Part shown: in pieces, positions 5,671-43,156 of the stretch | Position numbering within the stretch: position 1 is the stretch's first letter | Layout of the letters: every line of letters begins with the position of its first letter | DNA from: an uncultured Acidobacteriota bacterium | GTDB taxonomy: Bacteria > Acidobacteriota > Vicinamibacteria > Fen-336 | DNA: 64,000 nucleotides | Direction: 5' to 3' | Assembly: GCA_902826455.1 (NCBI GenBank) | Contig: CADEEV010000005.1 | Coordinates: forward strand, 101,674-165,673 | Position numbers and translations under genes: made by a program | The notes under the pieces: generated by a model | The model's database searches: none | What the model was told of the DNA's origin: nothing | The model's input: the letters and a program-made list of their open reading frames with translations, nothing else

Positions 5671-7201
5671 CCGCGAGACCGACCTACTCGTCCTGGGCGG
5701 CGGCATCGCCGGGATGCTGCTGGCCGAGCGCGCGAGCGCCGCCGGGCGCGAGGTCCTGATCCTGGAGCGCGGCCTGCTGCCCGCGCGCGGCGAGGACGCC
5801 GGCCAGGCGCGGCCCCTGCCGTTCAACGCGCCGCCTTCGGCCGGTCGGGCGCGCGGCGACTACTACTTCGCCCCCGTCTACGCCGTGGGGGGCTCCACGA
5901 GCCATTTCTTCGGGAACCTGCCGCGCCTTCACCCGGCGCATCTCGAGGCGCGCGCCTTCGGCGGCGCCGATCGCCGCTGGCCGCTGCCCTACGCCGAGCT
6001 CGAGCCCTACTACCTCCAGGCGGAGGCCCGCCTGCGCGTGACCGGGGATTCCGAGCGCACGCCGTTCCGGGGACGTTTCGCGTACCCGCTCCCGCCCCAC
6101 CGCCTGAGCCCGATGGACCGGGCGAGCGCCGAGATCTTCGGCGCCGAGCACGTGCTGCCGGTGCCGTGCGCGCGGCCCTCGCGCCCGGTCGACGAGTGTC
6201 CAGCGTGCTGCGGCTCGAACCGCTGCATGCACTGCCCGATCGACTCGAAGATCACCGCCCTCAACACCGTGCATCCCGCCCTCGGCAAGCAAGTCGAGAT
6301 CGCCACGGGCCTGCTCGTGCGCGAGATCCGCTGCGAAGGGCGCCGCGCCGTCGAGGTGCGCGCCCTCGACGCCCGGGGCGAGACGCGCCTCTTTCGCGGA
6401 CGAGAGGTGGTGGTCGCCTGCAACGGCGTCGACTCGCCGCTGCTGCTCCTCGCCTCGCCCAGCGTGCCCCGGCACTCCGCCCTCGGCCGCTTCTACATGG
6501 ACCACGCGTCGTTCCGCGTCGCGGTCCACGGCTCGGGGCTCGACGCGCGCCCGGGCTACGGCGACAGCGCCCAGACTGGAATGGTGACGACGTTCTTCGA
6601 GCGCCTGGCCGCCGATCTGCCCGTGTCCATGCTCGGAGAAGTGAAGGGCGCCGACCTCGCGATGGACGCCGGCGGCGGCGACCGCGAGAGCGTCTTCTCG
6701 CAGGTGCTCCAGGACGCCGCGGCTTCGAGGCACGCGACGGGGCCGGATTTCCGCGACCGCTTCCGGGAGCTGTGGCGCTCGACGCTCCTGTTCAACTTCA
6801 TGCTGGAAACGCAGCCCCTGGCCTCGAACACGCTGACGCTGCGGGAGGTCACGGCGGCGGGTCAGCCGTTGCCGCAGTTCCGCCTCGAGCTTCCGTCGTA
6901 CCTGCCGGCGGCGGAAGCCGCGGTCGAGGCGCGCATCCGCGCGCGCCTGCCGAAGGCCGAGGTCCGCGTGATCCGGCGCACCCAGAGCCTCCAGCACTGG
7001 CTCGGCGCGACCCGCTACGGCCCGACCCCCGAGACCGGCTGCGTCGACCGCGACCTGCGCTACTACGGGGTCGACAACCTGTTCGTGCTGTCGGCGTCCG
7101 TCTTCCCGTCGAGCTCGAGCGCGAACCCGACGTTGACCCTGGCGGCGCTGTCGCTGAGGCTGGGCGACACGCTCTCGGCCACCGGCGTCGCCAGGGCCTG
7201 A
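5651..7201 (+). CDS. GMC-family FAD dehydrogenase, catalytic subunit
   Basis: This 516-residue flavoprotein has the FAD-binding GGGIAGMLLAERA loop near residue 16, the GGSTSHFFGN flavin motif, and a GMC C-terminus with HWLGATRYGP and SSSANPTLTLAALSLRLGD. Cysteines at 183, 186, 187, 192 and 195 form CPACC-x4-C-x2-C. The CC-x4-C part matches the cluster-binding motif of the FAD glucose dehydrogenase alpha subunit, which holds a 3Fe-4S centre. It has no signal peptide of its own, which fits export with the preceding Tat subunit; the two genes overlap by 20 bases. No cytochrome c subunit follows. The substrate is probably a sugar or alcohol. Its last 139 bases are antisense to the end of the next gene. 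Confidence 0.82.
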   Translation: MASSASSRETDLLVLGGGIAGMLLAERASAAGREVLILERGLLPARGEDAGQARPLPFNAPPSAGRARGDYYFAPVYAVGGSTSHFFGNLPRLHPAHLEARAFGGADRRWPLPYAELEPYYLQAEARLRVTGDSERTPFRGRFAYPLPPHRLSPMDRASAEIFGAEHVLPVPCARPSRPVDECPACCGSNRCMHCPIDSKITALNTVHPALGKQVEIATGLLVREIRCEGRRAVEVRALDARGETRLFRGREVVVACNGVDSPLLLLASPSVPRHSALGRFYMDHASFRVAVHGSGLDARPGYGDSAQTGMVTTFFERLAADLPVSMLGEVKGADLAMDAGGGDRESVFSQVLQDAAASRHATGPDFRDRFRELWRSTLLFNFMLETQPLASNTLTLREVTAAGQPLPQFRLELPSYLPAAEAAVEARIRARLPKAEVRVIRRTQSLQHWLGATRYGPTPETGCVDRDLRYYGVDNLFVLSASVFPSSSSANPTLTLAALSLRLGDTLSATGVARA

Positions 7202-8766
7202 ACGGCCCAGGCCCGCGCCGCGATCGCGGCCTCCAGCTCGGCGCTGCGCGTGAGCACGAGGGCCACGAGCTCGCGCCCGTCGCCCATCGGGATCCGCACG
7301 AGATAGGAGCCGGACGGCAGCGCGCCAACCACTTCCAGCTGGCGCAGGGCCACCGGGGCCGACGCCTCGAGACGCGCGCCCGCGTCGACGAGCCAGGGAT
7401 GGCCGATCACGAGGGTGACGCCGCGCCGCGCGAGGTACGCGAGGGGCGCGATGCGCGTCGGCCAGCCCGAGCCCGGCCGCCGCGGCGCATGGCGGCCGAC
7501 CCAGGCGTCGGTCAGTCCGAACATGTCGATGCTCTCGAGGCCCGAGTAGTACGGGATGGCGCCCGCCGGCGCCAGGGCGATCGAGACGCCGGGAACGCTG
7601 CCGAGCTCGCGCTCGAGGGCCTTGCCGACTCCGATCCAGTCCGAGGCCGGGTCGGTGAGGTGGTCCGCGAGTCCCGCGACCGACTGCAGGTCGAGGGGGT
7701 CGCCCGTGCCGCGGAAGTGGCGGGCGTGACCGAACGAGGCCAGCGGCAGGAGCGCCAGCAGCGCCCACTGGGCTGCCGTCATGGGAACGAGCTCCCGCAC
7801 CGCCGCGACGCTCACCAGCGCGAGGGCCGGCAGGATCGGCACGAGCAGCCGGAACTCCATGAAGTCGCCGCCCACCGCGACCACGTAGCCCGCCCAGGCC
7901 GACACGAGCGCCAGCGCGAAGCCGAAGCCGGCCGGCCGGCGCCGCAGCAGCGCGGGCATCGCGGCGAGGGTCAGGACGAGGAACGGGCCGAAGCGGTACG
8001 CGGAGACGAACGCGTCCAGGTAGGCGAAGCCCCGTTCCATCGAGCCGGCCACGGGCACCTTCGCGAAGTAGGTGTTGGGCAGGAGGTGGCCGTAGAAGCC
8101 GAGCTTCCAGTACACCCACGGTCCGACGATCGCGACGACGGGCACGACGGCGATGACCAGGCAGCGCAGCGGTTCCCCCGCGCGGCCCCGCCACACCTGG
8201 GCGACGACGAACAGCCAGGCGAGGCCCACGACCAGCACGGAGTCCGGACGGGTCAGGATCGCCACGGCGCTCCACAGGGACAAGGCGAGCAGGCGGCGAT
8301 CGGACCAGCGCTCGTCGCCTGCCACGAGGAACAGCAGGCCGGCGAAGAGGGCCGCCTGGAGCGCGGTCTCGAGCCCGCCGGTGGCGAAGGCCGAGAAGGA
8401 GTAGTTGGTGGCCAGCACGACCGCGACGAGGGCCGCGGCCGACGAGGACTTGAGCAACGAGCGTGCGGTGACGTGGACCAGGGCGAGCGTGACGCCGCTC
8501 GCGGCCAGGCCCAGCCACTGGCTCGCGGCCTCGGGCGCGAGGCCGAGACGGATCGCGGCGGCAAGCAGCACCGTCCACGAGAAGTTCGTGTATCCCTCGA
8601 CGCGCTCGCCCACGTTGAAGACGAGGCCGTGTCCCGCCGCGAGGTTGGCGGCGTAGCGGAACGAGATGAAGGCGTCGTCCATCAGGAACCGGTTGTGCCA
8701 GGCGAGGATCAGCCCGAAGACGAGGATCCCCCCCAGAACGGCGCCGTCACGCTTCGGATGGAACAT
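7063..8766 (-). CDS. Multi-pass membrane protein, GT-C glycosyltransferase-like
   Basis: The 567-residue product has many hydrophobic helices and an early acidic pair in the first loop (NRFLMDDAFISFRYAANLA), followed by GHGLVFNVGERVEGYTNFSW. This is the pattern of polyprenyl-phosphate-sugar-dependent GT-C transferases, where loop-1 acidic residues are catalytic. A soluble C-terminal part of about 200 residues includes SIDMFGLTDAWVGRH. It may add a sugar to an envelope glycan or lipid; donor and acceptor are unknown. The ATG follows a TATAGT box by 8 bases. The last 46 codons overlap the convergent GMC gene; an earlier stop is not available in this frame. Confidence 0.72.
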   Translation of the reverse strand: MFHPKRDGAVLGGILVFGLILAWHNRFLMDDAFISFRYAANLAAGHGLVFNVGERVEGYTNFSWTVLLAAAIRLGLAPEAASQWLGLAASGVTLALVHVTARSLLKSSSAAALVAVVLATNYSFSAFATGGLETALQAALFAGLLFLVAGDERWSDRRLLALSLWSAVAILTRPDSVLVVGLAWLFVVAQVWRGRAGEPLRCLVIAVVPVVAIVGPWVYWKLGFYGHLLPNTYFAKVPVAGSMERGFAYLDAFVSAYRFGPFLVLTLAAMPALLRRRPAGFGFALALVSAWAGYVVAVGGDFMEFRLLVPILPALALVSVAAVRELVPMTAAQWALLALLPLASFGHARHFRGTGDPLDLQSVAGLADHLTDPASDWIGVGKALERELGSVPGVSIALAPAGAIPYYSGLESIDMFGLTDAWVGRHAPRRPGSGWPTRIAPLAYLARRGVTLVIGHPWLVDAGARLEASAPVALRQLEVVGALPSGSYLVRIPMGDGRELVALVLTRSAELEAAIAARAWAVQALATPVAESVSPSLSDSAARVNVGFALELDGKTDADSTNRLSTP

Positions 8767-8810: not shown

Positions 8811-10181
8811 ATGTCTCGCTCACCCGGATCGGCGCGCGCTCTCTCGGTCTTCGCCTGGCTCTGGGCAGCGGCGACGCTCTTCCACCTCGCGTCCTATCGG
8901 CTCTTCGGCGAGAGCGCGGCCGATCTCGCGCTGGCGGGGGCGGCCGTCCTCACGCTCTTGCGCCCGGCGTCCACCCCACGTTTCGCCTTCCTGCTGGCGG
9001 CGCAGCTCGTCGAGCTCTGGAGCGCAATGCCCTACGTCGCGAACCACTGGCTCTTCACGGGCTTCGTGAGCCTGACGCTCCTCGTCGCGATGGCCCAGCA
9101 GGCGCTCTCGAGCCGGGTGTTGCGCATCGATCGGGACCGGCTCTGGGCCGCCGCTGCGCCGGTCGTGAGGCTCGAGCTCGTGCTGCTCTACTTCCTGGCG
9201 TTCTTCCACAAGCTCAACCGCGACTACACGAGCCTCGACGCGAGCTGCGCGTCCTACTTCCTGTCGGCGCTCGAGACGCGCTTCACGTGGCTGCCCGAGG
9301 GTCCCGCGTTGCGCGCCGGCTTCGTGCTCGGGTCCCTCGCGGTCGAGCTCGCGATCCCTTTGCTGCTCCTGTCGCGCTCGCGCCGCGAGCTGGGGATCCT
9401 CGTGGGGGTGCTCTTCCACGTGCTCCTGCCGCTCTCGCCGTTCCCGCCCCACGGCGTCTACAACTTCTCGGCGATGCTGTTCGCCTGCTATTTCACCTTC
9501 GCTGCCGCGGCGCGGGTCGAGCGGATCCTCGAGCTGCGGCCGGTCGGCTGGCTGCGCGACGAGTCGCAGCGGCCGGGTCTCGGGGCGGCCGCCTGGCTCG
9601 GGGTCTTGTGCGCCGCCGGGCTGGTGCTCGCCCCGGCCTGGCTCTGGCTCGCGTACGCGGCGACGCTGCTGCTCCTGTTCCTCGCGTCGCGGAGCGGCCT
9701 GCGGGAAAGCCCGGAGCCGGTGCGTCCCGTGGTCGCCGTCGGAGCCGGCGCCTCCTGGATCGGTCCCGCCCTCGTGCTGCTGACGGGCATGAGCCCCTAC
9801 CTGGGCCTGAAGACCGAGACCTCGTTCGCGATGTTCAGCAACCTGCGCACCGAGGGCGGCGCCAGCAACCACTGGATCGTCCGCAAGCCCCTCGACCTGT
9901 TCGGCCTGCAGGGGGACCTCGTGCGCATCGTCGCGGCGCGGGACCGGCTCCTCGCGTCGTACGCCGCGAGCGGACAGCAGCTGACCTGGCTCGAGTTCCG
10001 CGACTACGTGCAGTCGCGGCCGCGCGCCGACGCGAGCTACGTGCGCGGCAGCGAGGCCCCCCGCTCCATCAAGCGCCTCGAGGACGACCCGCGGCTGCTC
10101 GAGCCGGTTCCGTACCTGGTGCGCAAGCTCGTGCGCTTCCGGCCCGTGCGCCTCGCGAGCCCTGTCGAGTGCGTGCACTGA
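8811..10181 (+). CDS. HTTM-like (vitamin K gamma-carboxylase-related) membrane protein
   Basis: This 456-residue protein has about ten hydrophobic segments and resembles the bacterial HTTM group related to vitamin K-dependent gamma-carboxylase. [21 protein letters not shown] and [17 protein letters not shown] give the helix-histidine patterns seen in that group, and [15 protein letters not shown] is conserved at the start of the soluble C-terminal part. The biochemical role of bacterial HTTM proteins is mostly unknown. I prefer the ATG at 8811 because the ATG at 8799 lies inside the TAGGAT box. It is divergent from the GT-C-like gene. Confidence 0.65.
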
Positions 10182-10196
10182 CGACGCCGGCGCGTC

Positions 10197-12239
10197 CTAC
10201 TTGAGGCCGAACTCCCGGGCCCGCAGGTTCTTGACGCGGTCGCGCAGCTCGGCCGCCTTCTCGAACTCGAGGGCCTTGGCCGATTCGCGCATCAGCTTCT
10301 CGAGCTTCTTCACCTCGCGCTCGATGTCGTCGATCGTCTTGAAGCTGTCGACCACCGGCGCGTCGATCTCGGGCACGGCCATGTAGTCGGCCTCGTACAC
10401 GCTCGAGAGCAGCTCGCCGATGTTCTTCCGGATGCTCTCCGGGGTGATGTTGTGCTCCTTGTTGTAGGCCTCCTGGATGACGCGGCGGCGCGAGGTCTCG
10501 CCGATCGCGGCCTTCATCGAGTCCGTCTCCTTGTCCGCGTACAGGATCGCGGTGCCCGAGAGGTTGCGGGCGGCGCGGCCGATGGTCTGGATCAGTGAGC
10601 CGCCGGAGCGCAGGAAACCCTCCTTGTCGGCGTCGAGGATCGCGACCAGCGACACCTCGGGCAGGTCGAGGCCCTCGCGCAGCAGGTTGATGCCCACGAG
10701 CACGTCGAACTCCCCCTTGCGCAGGTCCCGCAGGATCTTGACGCGCTCCAGGGTCTCGATGTCGGAGTGCAGGTAGCGCACGCGCACGCCGAGGTCGTGG
10801 TAGTACTCGGTCAGGTCCTCGGCCATGCGCTTCGTCAGGGTCGTGACGAGCACGCGCTCGTCCTTGGCCGCGCGGGCGCGGATCTCGGCCAGCAGGTCGT
10901 CGACCTGGCCCTGCACCGGACGGATCACGACCGGCGGATCCATGAGGCCCGTGGGCCGGATCACCTGCTCGACCACGACGCCCTTCGACTGCTGGAGCTC
11001 GTAGGGTCCGGGCGTCGCCGACACGTAGATGCGCTGGCCGACGCGCTCCTCGAACTCCTCGAAGTTGAGGGGACGGTTGTCGAGGGCCGAGGGCATGCGG
11101 AAGCCGTACTCGACCAGGGTCGTCTTGCGCTGGCGGTCGCCGTGGTACATGCCGCGCACCTGGGGGATCGACTGGTGGCTCTCGTCCACGACGATCACCG
11201 CGTCCTTCGGCAGGTAGTCGAGGAGCGTCGGCGGCGGCTCCCCCGCCTGGCGCCCGGAGAGGTGGCGCGAGTAGTTCTCGATGCCGTGGCAGTGGCCGGC
11301 CTCGCGGAGCATCTCGAGGTCGAACATCGTGCGCTGGTAGAGCCGCTGCGCCTCGAGGAGCTTGCCGTCCCGCTCGAGCTCGCCCTTGCGCTCGAGCAGC
11401 TCCACCTCGATCGTCTTGATCGCCTCCTCGAGGCGCGGCCGCGGCGTGACGTAGTGGCTCGACGGGTAGATCGCGACCTGGGCGAGCCGGCCGAGGGTGC
11501 GCCCGGTCAGGGGATCGAAGGACGCGATCGACTCCACCTCGTCGCCGAAGAGCTCGATGCGGATGCCGGTCTCCTCGTAGGACGGGATGATCTCGACGAC
11601 GTCGCCGCGCACCCGGAACGTGCCCCGCTTGAAGTCCATGTCGTTGCGGTCGTAGCGCGCCTCGACGAGCTTCGCGAGCAGGTCGCGGCGGTCCAGGGTC
11701 TCGCCCTGGCGCACGAACAGCAGCATCCCGTAGTACGCCTCGGGCGAGCCGAGGCCGTAGATGCACGAGACCGAGGCGATGATGACGACGTCGCGGCGCT
11801 CGAAGAGGCTGCGGGTCGCCGAGAGCCGCAGCCGGTCGATCTCCTCGTTGATCGTCGACTCCTTCTCGATGTACGTGTCGGACTGCGGCACGTAGGCCTC
11901 GGGCTGGTAGTAGTCGTAGTACGAGACGAAGTACTCGACCGCGTTGTTCGGCAGGAACGACTTGAACTCCTGGTAGAGCTGCGCGGCCAGGGTCTTGTTG
12001 TGGGCGAGGATCAGCGCCGGCCGGTTCACCCTCGTGAGGACCTGGGCGATCGTGAACGTCTTGCCGCTGCCGGTGACGCCCAGCAGGACCTGGTGCTTGT
12101 CGTGGCGCTCGAGGCCGGCGACGAGCTCCTCGATGGCCCGGGGCTGGTCGCCCTGGGGCTGGAAGTCGCTCACCAGCTCGAAACGGGCGTCGGCGGGGGC
12201 GGGGGCGAGGCGCGGGGCTTCGGGACGGACAGGGCTCAT
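10197..12239 (-). CDS. uvrB: UvrABC excision repair subunit UvrB
   Basis: UvrB verifies DNA damage delivered by UvrA and hands it to UvrC. The 680-residue product has Walker [11 protein letters not shown] near residue 47, the [12 protein letters not shown] beta-hairpin that inserts into damaged DNA, the [12 protein letters not shown] and DESHQSIPQ helicase motifs, QTIGRAARN as motif VI, and a C-terminal UVR coiled-coil region ([16 protein letters not shown]) that contacts UvrC. The ATG at 12239 has GAGGAG 6 bases upstream, so it is better than an in-frame ATG at 12302. UvrC is encoded at 51202-52998; UvrA is not in the window. Confidence 0.98.

Positions 12240-37017: not shown

Positions 37018-37021
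<4 letters not shown>
35411..37021 (+). CDS. B12-binding radical SAM enzyme
   Basis: A 536-residue class B radical SAM protein. Residues 1-140 form a cobalamin-binding domain ([41 protein letters not shown]). The radical SAM core begins at [13 protein letters not shown], whose CxxxCxxC binds the 4Fe-4S cluster. [29 protein letters not shown] and [15 protein letters not shown] are standard for this group. The C-terminal 120 residues are helical and basic and may bind a lipid or other substrate. The family includes methyltransferases and ring-forming enzymes; the substrate is unknown. AGGAG precedes the ATG. Its stop shares CTAG with convergent gcvP. Confidence 0.88.
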
Positions 37022-39900
<2,879 letters not shown>

Positions 39901-39924: not shown

Positions 39925-40311
39925 CTACTTGGATTCGCTCTCGACGAACGCCTTGTAGGCGGCCGCGTCCATGAGCGCTGCGACCGCCGCGGGCTCGGCG
40001 AGCTTCACGACGAGCATCCAGCCGGCGCCGTAGGGATCGGTATTGACGGCCTCGGGGCCCTTCACCAGGGCGGCGTTGGCCTCGACGACCTCCCCCGCCA
40101 CGGGCGAGAGCAGCTCGGACACGGCCTTCACCGACTCGACCGTGCCGAAGTTCTCGCCGGCCTTCAAGGCGCGCCCCGCGTCTGGCAGCTCGAGGAACAC
40201 GACGTCGCCGAGCTGCTTCTGGGCGTAGTCGGTGATCCCCACGGTGCCGCGATCGCCCGCGACGCGGACCCACTCGTGGTCCTTCGTGAAGCGCAGGTCC
40301 TCTGGATACAT
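39925..40311 (-). CDS. gcvH: Glycine cleavage system H protein
   Basis: A 128-residue lipoyl carrier protein. The lipoylated lysine lies in GTVESVKAVSELLSPVAGEV near residue 62, with FTKDHEWV at the N-terminus and NTDPYGAGWMLVVK toward the end, all typical. It shuttles the aminomethyl group between GcvP and GcvT. It lies between gcvT and gcvP with gaps of 9 and 24 bases. Confidence 0.97.
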   Translation of the reverse strand: MYPEDLRFTKDHEWVRVAGDRGTVGITDYAQKQLGDVVFLELPDAGRALKAGENFGTVESVKAVSELLSPVAGEVVEANAALVKGPEAVNTDPYGAGWMLVVKLAEPAAVAALMDAAAYKAFVESESK

Positions 40312-40320
40312 GCCGGGCTC

Positions 40321-41433
40321 CTACTTGACGCGCTTGTAGAACGGGGTCGGAACGACGCGGGCCGGAACGAGCCGGCCGCGGATCTCCACGTCGAACTCGG
40401 TGCCGACCGCGGACTGCGCCGTGGGCAGGTAGCCGAGGCCGATGTTCTTCTGCAGGAACGGGGCGAAGGTGCCCGAGGTGACGGCGCCGACGCCCTGGCC
40501 CTTGAGCAGGATCGGATAGCCGTGACGCGCGATGCCGCGGCCGACCATCTCGAAGCCCACCAGCTTGCGGGGCGGGCCGCTCTTCTTCTGGGGCTCGAGG
40601 ACCGGGCGGCCGAGGAACTCGCCCTTGGCCTCGTCGAGCGACACGATCCAGCCGAGACCGGCCTCGACCAGCGTGGTGCTCTCGTCCATGTCGTTGCCGT
40701 AGAGGCACATGCGGGCCTCGAGCCGCAGCGTGTCGCGGGCCCCGAGGCCGGCCGGGACGAGGCCGAGCGGCTGCCCGACCTCGATCAGCTTGCGCCAGAG
40801 CGGCTCGGCGCGGTCGGCGCTCACGAGGATCTCGAAGCCGTCCTCGCCCGTATAGCCCGTGCGCGAGACCGTGGCCTCGCTGCCGTCCACGGTGCCGGTC
40901 GCGAAGTGGTAGTAGCGGATCGACGCCAGGTCGAGGCTGGTGAGGCCCTGGAGGATCTCCTGGGACTTCGGGCCCTGGAGCGCCAACAGCGCGAACTCGT
41001 CGCTGCGGTTGCGCAGCTCGCAGCCAGTCGGCTCCTGGTCCTGCAGCCAGCGGTAGTCCTTGTCGATGTTGCTGGCGTTCACGACGAGCAGGTAGCGATC
41101 CGCCGCCCGCCGCGAGACGATCACGTCGTCCACCGGGGCGCCCGTCGGCATCGGCAGGGCCGAGTATTGCGCCTGACCGTCCACGAGCTTCGCGACGTTG
41201 TTGGACGTGACCCGTTGCAGGAAGGCGAGGGCGCCCGGTCCCGACACCTCGAACTCGCCCATGTGGGACACGTCGAAGAGGCCGGCGGCGGTCCGGACGG
41301 CCATGTGCTCGGAGATCAATCCCGAGTACTCGACCGGCATCTCCCAGCCGCCGAAGGGGACCATCTTGGCGCCGCTCTCGCGGTGCACGGGGTAGAGCGG
41401 CGTCTTGCGAAGGACGGAGGCGGCGCTTTCCAT
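40321..41433 (-). CDS. gcvT: Glycine cleavage system T protein (aminomethyltransferase)
   Basis: GcvT releases ammonia and transfers the one-carbon unit to tetrahydrofolate. The 370-residue product has [37 protein letters not shown]-like IVNASN contacts ([16 protein letters not shown]) and [12 protein letters not shown], all conserved. The ATG at 41433 was preferred to a TTG at 41448, which falls in the TAGCTT promoter-like box. It is first in the gcvTHP operon. The 115-base divergent spacer is too short for a tandem glycine riboswitch, and none was recognised. Confidence 0.96.
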
Positions 41434-41487
41434 TCGAAGGGCGCTCAAGCTATCACACGGCCCGACCCAGGGTCAATGACTGCAGCG

Positions 41488-41502
41488 CGTTGTCCGACAA
41501 CG
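41488..41502. promoter_or_regulatory. 15-base perfect inverted repeat between gcvT and the PilB-like gene
   Basis: Arms CGTTGTC and GACAACG flank a central C in the divergent spacer. It lies 36 bases upstream of the gcvT promoter-like TAGCTT and 11 bases upstream of TATCCT on the plus strand. It looks like the operator of a dimeric repressor that could control both directions. The binding protein is unknown. Confidence 0.45.
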
Positions 41503-41548
41503 AGTTATGGGCTATCCTTGAGGCTGGTCCCTCCTCCGAAGGGTACGG

Positions 41549-43156
41549 GTGCGCGTGGCCGTCGAGACCTACATCACCACCTGCTGGAACTGCCTGGGCG
41601 ACTTCGATGCGCTGAGCGCGGTCTGGTGCTCGGACGACCCCAAGAACCCCACGAAGCTCTGCCCGTTCTGCTTCCGCTGCTTCTGCGACGGCAGCGAGAA
41701 GTACAAGCAGGAGTTCTGGAAGAAGGCCCCGGCCAAGCTCGTCGAGGAGGTCCAGGTCCTGGCTCGCAGCAAGGACCGCCTGGGCGACGTGCTCATCCGC
41801 ATGAAGAAGCTGCAGACCCCGCAGCTCCTCGAGGCGCTCGTCGAGCAGAAGAACACCGGCAAGAAGCTGGGCGAGATCCTCGTCGACCGGAAGCTGGTGC
41901 GGCCCGAGGACATCGCCGCCGCCCTCAAGAGCCAGGGCGTCAGCCCGCTGACCGACACGATGGGCGCCGAGTACGCGGCGAGCCCGGTGTGGGACCAGAG
42001 CGGCCCCGACGCGATCATCCAGTACATCCTGTCCCTCGCGGCCCGCAAGGGCGCGTCCGACGTCCACATCGAGCCCAAGGAAGACGCGATCTCGGTCAAG
42101 TACCGCATCGACGGCTTCTTCTTCCGCGTCGACCCGATCCCCAAGAGCTTCCAGGCCGCCTTCACGCAGAAGCTCTTCGAGGTCTTCCGGCTCGATCCCG
42201 AGCGCTCGACGCGCCCGCAGACGAGCCGCACGAGCGGGCGCCTCGCCGAGGGCGACTACGACCTCGTGACGCAGACGCTGCCGACGCCCCACGGCATCTC
42301 GGCCACGATCAAGCTGATCAACCGCTCGACGTTCATCAAGGACTTCGCGACGCTGGGCCTCGAGCTCGAGGACCGCGTGCGGCTCCTCGAGGAGCTGCGC
42401 AACCACTTCGGCCTCGTGCTGGTCACGGCGCCCGTCTACAACGGCGCCGGCACCACCGCGTACTCGATCATGAACTTCCTGGCCCAGGCCCAGCGCGACG
42501 TGGTCTCGCTCGAGTCGCCGATCCACTGGCCCCTCGAGGGCGTCCGCCAGGTCGAGGTGGAGCAGGGTCCCCAGGGCCTGAAGATGGAAGAGACGCTGCG
42601 CTCGGTGGTGGCGGTGCGCCCCGAGGTCGTGATGCTGTCGTCGATCCCCGACCGGGCGACGGCGCTGCTCGCGAGCCAGCTCGCCTCGAGCGTGCTGGTC
42701 GTCGCGGTCATCCCGGGCCAGAACGCCGGGGGCGCCGTGAGCGGCCTGATCGAGATGGGCGTGCCGCCGCAGATGCTGTCCGGGGCCGTCGCGGCAGTGA
42801 CCTGCCAGCGCCTGGTGCGCCAGATCTGCCGCATCTGCCGCGAGCCGGGCGAGGCTCCGGCGCCCCAGACCCTGGCAAACCACGGGATCAGCGCCGAGGA
42901 GTCGGCGAAGCTCCAGTTCTTCCGGGGCCGCGGCTGCCCCACCTGCAACAAGGTCGGCTACCGCGGCCGGCGCGCGATCTTCGAGGTCATGAACGGCGCG
43001 CCCGAGATCCGCACCTCGATCCAGAGCGGCCTGTCCGCCGCCGAGATCGAGTCGATGGCGATCGGCGCCGGCATGACGACGCTGCGCGCGCGCTGCCTGC
43101 AGCTCGTGGCCGAGGGCGCCACGACCTTCGACGAGTTCGCGAAGCTCAGGCTCTGA
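41549..43156 (+). CDS. PilB/GspE-family protein with all ATPase motifs lost
   Basis: A 535-residue homologue of type IV pilus/type II secretion ATPases. The N-terminus is a Cys cluster (C12-x2-C15, C27, C38-x2-C41-x2-C44-x-C46), then a PilB N-domain-like stretch (RLGDVLIRMKKLQTPQLLEA). The Asp-box is conserved (GASDVHIEPKEDAISVKYRI) and so is the C-terminal zinc region (ICRIC, CPTCNKVGYRGRRAIFEVM). The Walker A loop reads APVYNGAGTT at 294-303, with Ala300 instead of Lys. Walker B GEIRD reads SSIPD. The His-box lacks His (VLVVAVIPGQN). It cannot work as a normal ATPase but is kept as a full gene. No pilus genes are nearby. Confidence 0.8.
   Translation: MRVAVETYITTCWNCLGDFDALSAVWCSDDPKNPTKLCPFCFRCFCDGSEKYKQEFWKKAPAKLVEEVQVLARSKDRLGDVLIRMKKLQTPQLLEALVEQKNTGKKLGEILVDRKLVRPEDIAAALKSQGVSPLTDTMGAEYAASPVWDQSGPDAIIQYILSLAARKGASDVHIEPKEDAISVKYRIDGFFFRVDPIPKSFQAAFTQKLFEVFRLDPERSTRPQTSRTSGRLAEGDYDLVTQTLPTPHGISATIKLINRSTFIKDFATLGLELEDRVRLLEELRNHFGLVLVTAPVYNGAGTTAYSIMNFLAQAQRDVVSLESPIHWPLEGVRQVEVEQGPQGLKMEETLRSVVAVRPEVVMLSSIPDRATALLASQLASSVLVVAVIPGQNAGGAVSGLIEMGVPPQMLSGAVAAVTCQRLVRQICRICREPGEAPAPQTLANHGISAEESAKLQFFRGRGCPTCNKVGYRGRRAIFEVMNGAPEIRTSIQSGLSAAEIESMAIGAGMTTLRARCLQLVAEGATTFDEFAKLRL

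Follow-up and report, generated by a model that had tools for sequence, protein, structure and literature searches.

The gene and its product

The window analysed here is a 64,000-nucleotide stretch of contig CADEEV010000005.1 from an uncultured Acidobacteriota bacterium of the class Vicinamibacteria. A first-pass annotation, made from the letters alone, singled out one gene in it as a full-length PilB/GspE homologue that has lost its catalytic motifs, keeps its C-terminal zinc-binding region and has gained a cluster of seven cysteines at the N-terminus. All of this is borne out. The open reading frame (ORF) encodes 535 residues, matches the T2SSE domain PF00437 at 201.2 bits against a Pfam cut-off of 24.9, retains the PilB fold by prediction and carries the C-terminal tetra-Cys zinc motif (C427, C430, C463 and C466), three features that place the product in the PilB/GspE superfamily (Table 1). 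Against the NCBIfam equivalog models for PilB (TIGR02538) and GspE (TIGR02533) it scores 253 and 249.7 bits, below the respective cut-offs of 675.65 and 630.25.

None of the residues that mark a functional PilB/GspE ATPase, namely Walker A, the Walker B glutamate, the His-box histidine and the Asp-box aspartate, is present. Where active PilB/GspE proteins have GPTGSGKT, the window protein has APVYNGAG, with alanine for the Walker A lysine; SSIPD replaces GEIRD in Walker B, the catalytic glutamate at position 365 being serine; and the His-box position is P389. The Asp box had been described as kept, which holds for E322 and not for D323 or E326; D368 is also retained. Set against PilB, the type IVa pilus assembly ATPase (TIGR02538; structures 5TSH and 5OIU), this protein, hereafter the dead motor, lacks the four motor residues, has an extra seven-Cys module and is encoded beside neither PilM nor other PF00437 genes.

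Table 1. Features of the dead-motor locus (window positions).
Feature	Position	Strand	Remarks
Predicted pseudo-ATPase, PilB/GspE family	41549..43156	+	GTG start, 535 aa
N-terminal seven-Cys module	41570..41746	+	Residues 8-66; CxxC-x11-C-x10-CPxCxxCFC
Tandem 24-residue MshEN-type c-di-GMP receptor motif	41777..41935	+	Residues 77-129; NF053729
PilB/GspE core (T2SSE)	42014..43138	+	Residues 156-530; PF00437
Dead Walker A	42428..42457	+	Residues 294-303; APVYNGAGTT, K300 to A
Asp box	42500..42529	+	Residues 318-327; E322 kept, D323 to S, E326 to H
Dead Walker B	42638..42652	+	Residues 364-368; SSIPD, catalytic Glu to Ser, Arg to Pro
His-box position	42713..42715	+	Residue 389, His to Pro
C-terminal tetra-Cys zinc motif	42827..42946	+	C427, C430, C463, C466, kept
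Dyad over putative -35	41488..41502	+	CGTTGTC-C-GACAACG, perfect 7-nt arms
Putative promoter	41490..41518	+	TTGTCC-17 nt-TATCCT; same spacing in 8/9 same-family regions
gcvT	40321..41448	-	Divergent neighbour, synteny anchor
gcvH	39925-40311		Beyond gcvT
gcvP	37018-39900		Beyond gcvH

A family without motor residues

A protein search from the window protein returned 538 relatives; among the best 120 of these, at 66-100% identity, none has an intact Walker A motif, and residue 300 is Ala in 94, Ser in 20, Gly in 5 and Val in 1. A second search, with a relative at 33% as query, met a sharp border between dead and active proteins: the seven-Cys pattern occurs in 202 of the proteins numbered P0001-P0204 (the exceptions being P0046, with a late start, and P0130, without the first Cys) and Walker A in none of them, whereas P0205-P0224 have Walker A in 20/20 and the Cys pattern in none. 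The best 120 proteins of each search formed the basis of our protein sets.

To these sets we added ORFs from genomic loci (numbered L) and compared all sequences in one alignment of 265 dead rows (P0001-P0204 plus 61 locus ORFs longer than 470 aa, with L140 and shorter ORFs excluded) and 64 active rows, in which "dead" was assigned by Cys module and search rank and "active" by Walker patterns for loci and by rank for P0205-P0224. With rows unique by exact sequence only, so that some genes are represented twice by entries that differ in their start or are truncated, Lys at 300 is found in 0/265 dead versus 63/64 active rows, Asp at 323 in 0/265 versus 62/64, Glu at 365 in 19/265 versus 63/64, and His at 389 in 3/265 versus 62/64. 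Ala is the commonest replacement at 300 (142/265 dead rows). The letters around the dead site are conserved in their own right (P295 in 265/265, G299 in 259, T303 in 251 and P367 in 209 rows), a pattern that drift would not produce, and the tetra-Cys zinc motif is present in 260 rows, the remaining five being gapped there. Sequencing or assembly error was ruled out, as other genomes and metagenomes show the same motif substitutions.

Two observations concern the margins of these sets. P0205-P0210 are about 1007 aa long and have two GPTGSGKT Walker A motifs per chain; they are perhaps fused twin PilB motors. At L140, the product of positions 5984-7642 (553 aa) has the Cys module, no Pfam match and C-terminal CxxC pairs that resemble the PilB zinc motif; it may be a PilB that has degenerated even further.

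Selection and phylogeny

The ratio of nonsynonymous to synonymous substitution rates (dN/dS) of the dead-motor gene is 0.154 and 0.185 in two same-genus pairs, indicating strong constraint; in one of these pairs gcvT gives 0.225 and gcvP 0.159. The gene might still be a pilB copy that lost its function and is drifting, since its catalytic residues are gone and some relatives (L135, L140) are far more degenerate. Against such decay stand the 66-100% identity across the best 120 of 538 homologues, the fixed replacement letters, the dN/dS of 0.15-0.19 and the conserved synteny described below. We rejected it on homologue conservation, replacement letters and dN/dS, and give it almost no credence. 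A homologue with an intact Walker A at the same locus was found in no relative, all ten same-family copies found being dead. The dedicated non-ATPase role that had been proposed over decay is supported.

In a first tree, built from 20 dead and 13 active rows picked by identity limits among rows with less than 15% gaps, and containing long branches, dead and active proteins separated at 83/77. After removal of the catalytic columns and of three long rows (A_L014, D_L135 and D_P0155), 18 dead and 12 active rows split at 100/100 in a second tree, in which D_P0166 kept a long branch and the bootstrap had yet to converge completely. A single origin of the dead family is the simplest account of this split; the trees are unrooted and so do not distinguish gain from loss.

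A tandem c-di-GMP motif

The layout first described for this protein made no mention of a tandem receptor motif for cyclic diguanosine monophosphate (c-di-GMP). The 53-residue model NF053729 matches it at 55.5 bits (cut-off 38), and 7/8 further Cys-module proteins tried also pass. As in Vibrio cholerae MshE, there are two 24-residue motifs with a 5-residue spacer and matching ligand-contact residues, as these are given in PMC5013675: R77, L78, G79, L93, L97 and Q100 in motif I, and K106, L107, G108, I122, L126 and Q129 in motif II. These contacts are kept in the dead family, where they rank with the best-conserved positions. Relatives P0121 and P0166 have the longer Pfam MshEN domain, PF05157.

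The seven-Cys module and its other carriers

The N-terminal cysteines of the window protein (C12, C15, C27, C38, C41, C44 and C46) are near-invariant and likewise among the most conserved positions of the dead family. The module gave no above-cut-off Pfam match in the proteins tested and no significant match in a fold search that included known zinc-finger folds; several of its non-significant fold neighbours are zinc or iron proteins. A zinc site in this cluster is plausible. The near-invariant cysteines and the nature of these neighbours would also suit a redox or metal sensor, in which the cysteines shift state with oxygen, iron or zinc and the remainder of the protein serves as output platform, an explanation that we consider quite unlikely.

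The module also occurs apart from the motor. In the genome from which the window comes (contig C10, L043/L162), and in 18/18 short-protein loci tested with Pfam, it is joined to a receiver domain; a search with the first 70 residues of Cys-receiver proteins returned two proteins. At L162 (3066-7786, or about 17.1-21.8 kb of contig C10 of genome G000), one strand encodes, in succession, a Cys-receiver protein, a GAF/PAS histidine kinase, a receiver and a REC-REC-GGDEF protein; the Hpt match in the last is below cut-off (22.1 versus 24.6), and above it in L124 and L126. An HD-domain receiver protein adjoins the Cys-receiver gene in L163. Within the stretches examined, 5/18 Cys-receiver loci have a GGDEF gene versus 0/37 dead-motor loci. 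Two loci (L127, 4046-4732; L131, 2769-3431) encode proteins of 220-230 aa in which the Cys module is followed by the c-di-GMP motif, at 45.3 and 46.9 bits (cut-off 38); neither protein matches T2SSE. Receiver and zinc-finger proteins tied to pili or pilus placement include the cyanobacterial PATAN-receiver regulators and Caulobacter ZitP. The likeness is one of protein kind, with no sequence relation shown, and ZitP appeared just among the non-significant fold matches.

Distribution and genomic neighbourhood

In a sample of the class, 14/193 genomes match the window protein at E 1e-120, including 10/14 genomes of the same family. Across a phylum sample, the Cys module occurs in some form in 47/396 genomes, 35 of which have it in an open frame longer than 540 aa, a dead-motor length judged by frame length only. 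All 13 named loci are labelled Acidobacteria, Acidobacteriota or Vicinamibacteria.

The divergent neighbour in the window is gcvT, followed by gcvH and gcvP, all three named by resemblance. The dead-motor gene is divergent from gcvT, about 0.1-0.5 kb apart, in 9/10 same-family genomes that have it; the tenth, G005, gave no gcvT match. The gcv genes also adjoin the dead motor in L023-L025, from another family of the class, and in L154, L156, L158 and L161, from families f35 and f65 outside it, gcvT being called in two of these four. Other dead-motor loci have different neighbour genes. In the three genomes of genus g10 that lack the gene, the roughly 1.5 kb examined upstream of gcvT contain none of its relatives.

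A pilus operon at the window locus was rejected because the genome's other PF00437 matches and PilM lie on other contigs. The description of the gene as far from any pilus gene holds to that extent (other pilus genes were not searched for in the window); in a related family, pseudopilin-like genes (below Pfam cut-offs) and ComEA-like genes lie 0.3-2.9 kb from the dead motor. L024, for example, has SpoVG-like, pseudopilin-like and ComEA-like helix-hairpin-helix genes beside it (9676-11046), and L023 and L025 show a similar order. PilM was found in 45/47 genomes with the Cys module versus 268/349 without it, assuming that both scans covered one and the same 396-genome sample.

The separation of the gene from the genome's other PF00437 genes and PilM fits a signalling hub that is independent of pili, in which the dead core would be a scaffold relaying c-di-GMP or phospho-signals to matrix or another output, much as nucleotide-free PilB has been proposed to do for exopolysaccharide in Myxococcus. 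Proteins with the Cys module and the c-di-GMP motif and no motor core agree with this, as does PilB K327A of M. xanthus, which signals without supporting motility (PMC5544727). On the other side, the PilB core is under purifying selection with near-invariant zinc cysteines, as if its ordinary contacts still mattered, and PilM accompanies the Cys module in nearly every genome. We regard such a hub as rather unlikely.

The window's genome has four strong PilB-type matches, and L026 (5506-7251 and 7261-9135) and L027 (4149-5927 and 5931-7787) each encode tandem dead paralogues, both with the seven-Cys module. Together with the predicted fold, these could point to an inactive subunit that serves a structural purpose in a mixed PilB hexamer, in which neither the MshEN-type motif nor the Cys module would have a sensory role. 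The high conservation of the MshEN contacts and of the seven cysteines, and the occurrence of the module without a motor, argue against such a subunit and make it unlikely in our judgement.

A proposed role in pilus control

We class the dead motor as a predicted pseudoenzyme lineage within the PilB family that carries a new accessory module. Its retained features, namely the MshEN ligand contacts, the PilB core and the Cys module, are the strongest clue to how it may work. A close analogy comes from M. xanthus (PMC5544727), where the engineered PilB K327A acts dominantly, fails to support pilus motility and signals exopolysaccharide production; the authors of that study credit this to a nucleotide-free state. 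The window protein resembles that mutant in its Walker A lysine-to-alanine change, in its c-di-GMP motif and in the signalling state proposed for it; unlike K327A, which is a laboratory mutant of an active motor, the change here is natural and family-wide and is accompanied by loss of the other motifs and by the Cys module. Acinetobacter baylyi TfpB offers another parallel as a further PilB-family protein besides PilB, and differs in being described as a second ATPase taking part in extension (PMC11656802).

On these grounds, we read the window protein as a conserved, predicted PilB-family pseudo-ATPase that probably senses c-di-GMP through its MshEN-type motif and that, by prediction, does not drive the type IV pilus machine but acts on it, as adaptor or brake, a tentative reading to which we give a little less than an even chance. 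It sharpens the earlier suggestion of a scaffold, regulator or ligand sensor, which was vague; the evidence favours a c-di-GMP-linked adaptor. The core keeps its zinc cysteines and predicted fold without the Walker A Lys, the Walker B Glu, the Asp-box Asp or the His-box His. Absence of the lysine would hold the protein in a nucleotide-free conformation, and the tandem motif, with its ligand contacts kept, would bind c-di-GMP. The seven-Cys module, probably a zinc-bound docking domain, may recruit the dead motor as well as the Cys-receiver proteins to a shared partner; kinase/GGDEF signalling and c-di-GMP would, as we propose, thereby converge at one place. A dead ring or subunit might then compete or mix with active PilB, of which the window's genome has several paralogues.

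Several observations weigh against this reading, in which binding, partners and phenotype are inferred. Unlike in MshE, the motif I turn glycine (Gly18 in MshE) is Lys in the window and is replaced in most close rows (K in 144, R in 17; n=173); the longer PF05157 gave no match in the window protein at E up to 1; and c-di-GMP binding is here a prediction. R77 is kept in just 27/92 distant rows, and P0166 falls below the NF053729 cut-off (29.7 bits versus 38). A shared domain is the sole link between the dead motor and the Cys-receiver proteins, and three g10 genomes encode the receiver form and no dead motor. The GGDEF comparison given above (5/18 versus 0/37) has a p value that serves just as a guide, since loci are related and stretches are unequal in length, and one contig is included twice among the 37 (L027, L142); by single-sequence searches, the dead-motor loci have no GGDEF and one kinase match (L143). 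The window gene lies among housekeeping genes, two genomes with the Cys module (G386 and G415) have no PilM match, and such a match is absent from 83/396 genomes. Finally, dN/dS between the window and other genera is 0.27-0.47 for the dead-motor gene and 0.21-0.36 for the gcv genes, suggesting that the dead motor is somewhat less constrained, with synonymous sites near saturation in the more distant pairs.

A bolder proposal, which we consider possible yet doubtful, is that these proteins make up a previously undescribed pilus-control module of the Acidobacteriota. The seven-Cys docking domain would sit on a c-di-GMP-reading dead PilB and on receiver proteins, some encoded with kinases and GGDEF cyclases, and pseudo-motor and phospho-relays would contend for a single site at the base of the type IV pilus. 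Evidence that PilB signals apart from driving pili has so far come from engineered Myxococcus mutants, and a natural family without motor residues that keeps the core, the c-di-GMP motif and a docking-like module would allow a direct test. If the bolder proposal is right, the PilB line would here have, as far as is known, its first natural family of pseudo-motors, and the laboratory "nucleotide-free PilB" signalling state would have a natural counterpart; a literature search of partial coverage, through titles and abstracts, found neither a dead PilB family nor this Cys module described. A source labels many proteins of the dead family "type IV pilus assembly protein PilB", a name that probably misstates their function.

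A dyad over the putative promoter

A palindromic operator had been annotated upstream of the gene. The dyad is real; it is a candidate operator at most, and it overlaps the -35 of a putative promoter. A strict sigma-70 scan reported no promoter upstream of the dead-motor gene. With TTGNNN-17-TANNNT, a pattern picked after inspection of the sequences, one match each was found in 8/9 same-family intergenic regions, the spacer always being 17 nt when 16-18 was allowed. In these eight regions a 15-base partial dyad, weak in some, spans the -35, with 7, 5, 6, 3, 6, 6, 5 and 4 of 7 possible pairs.
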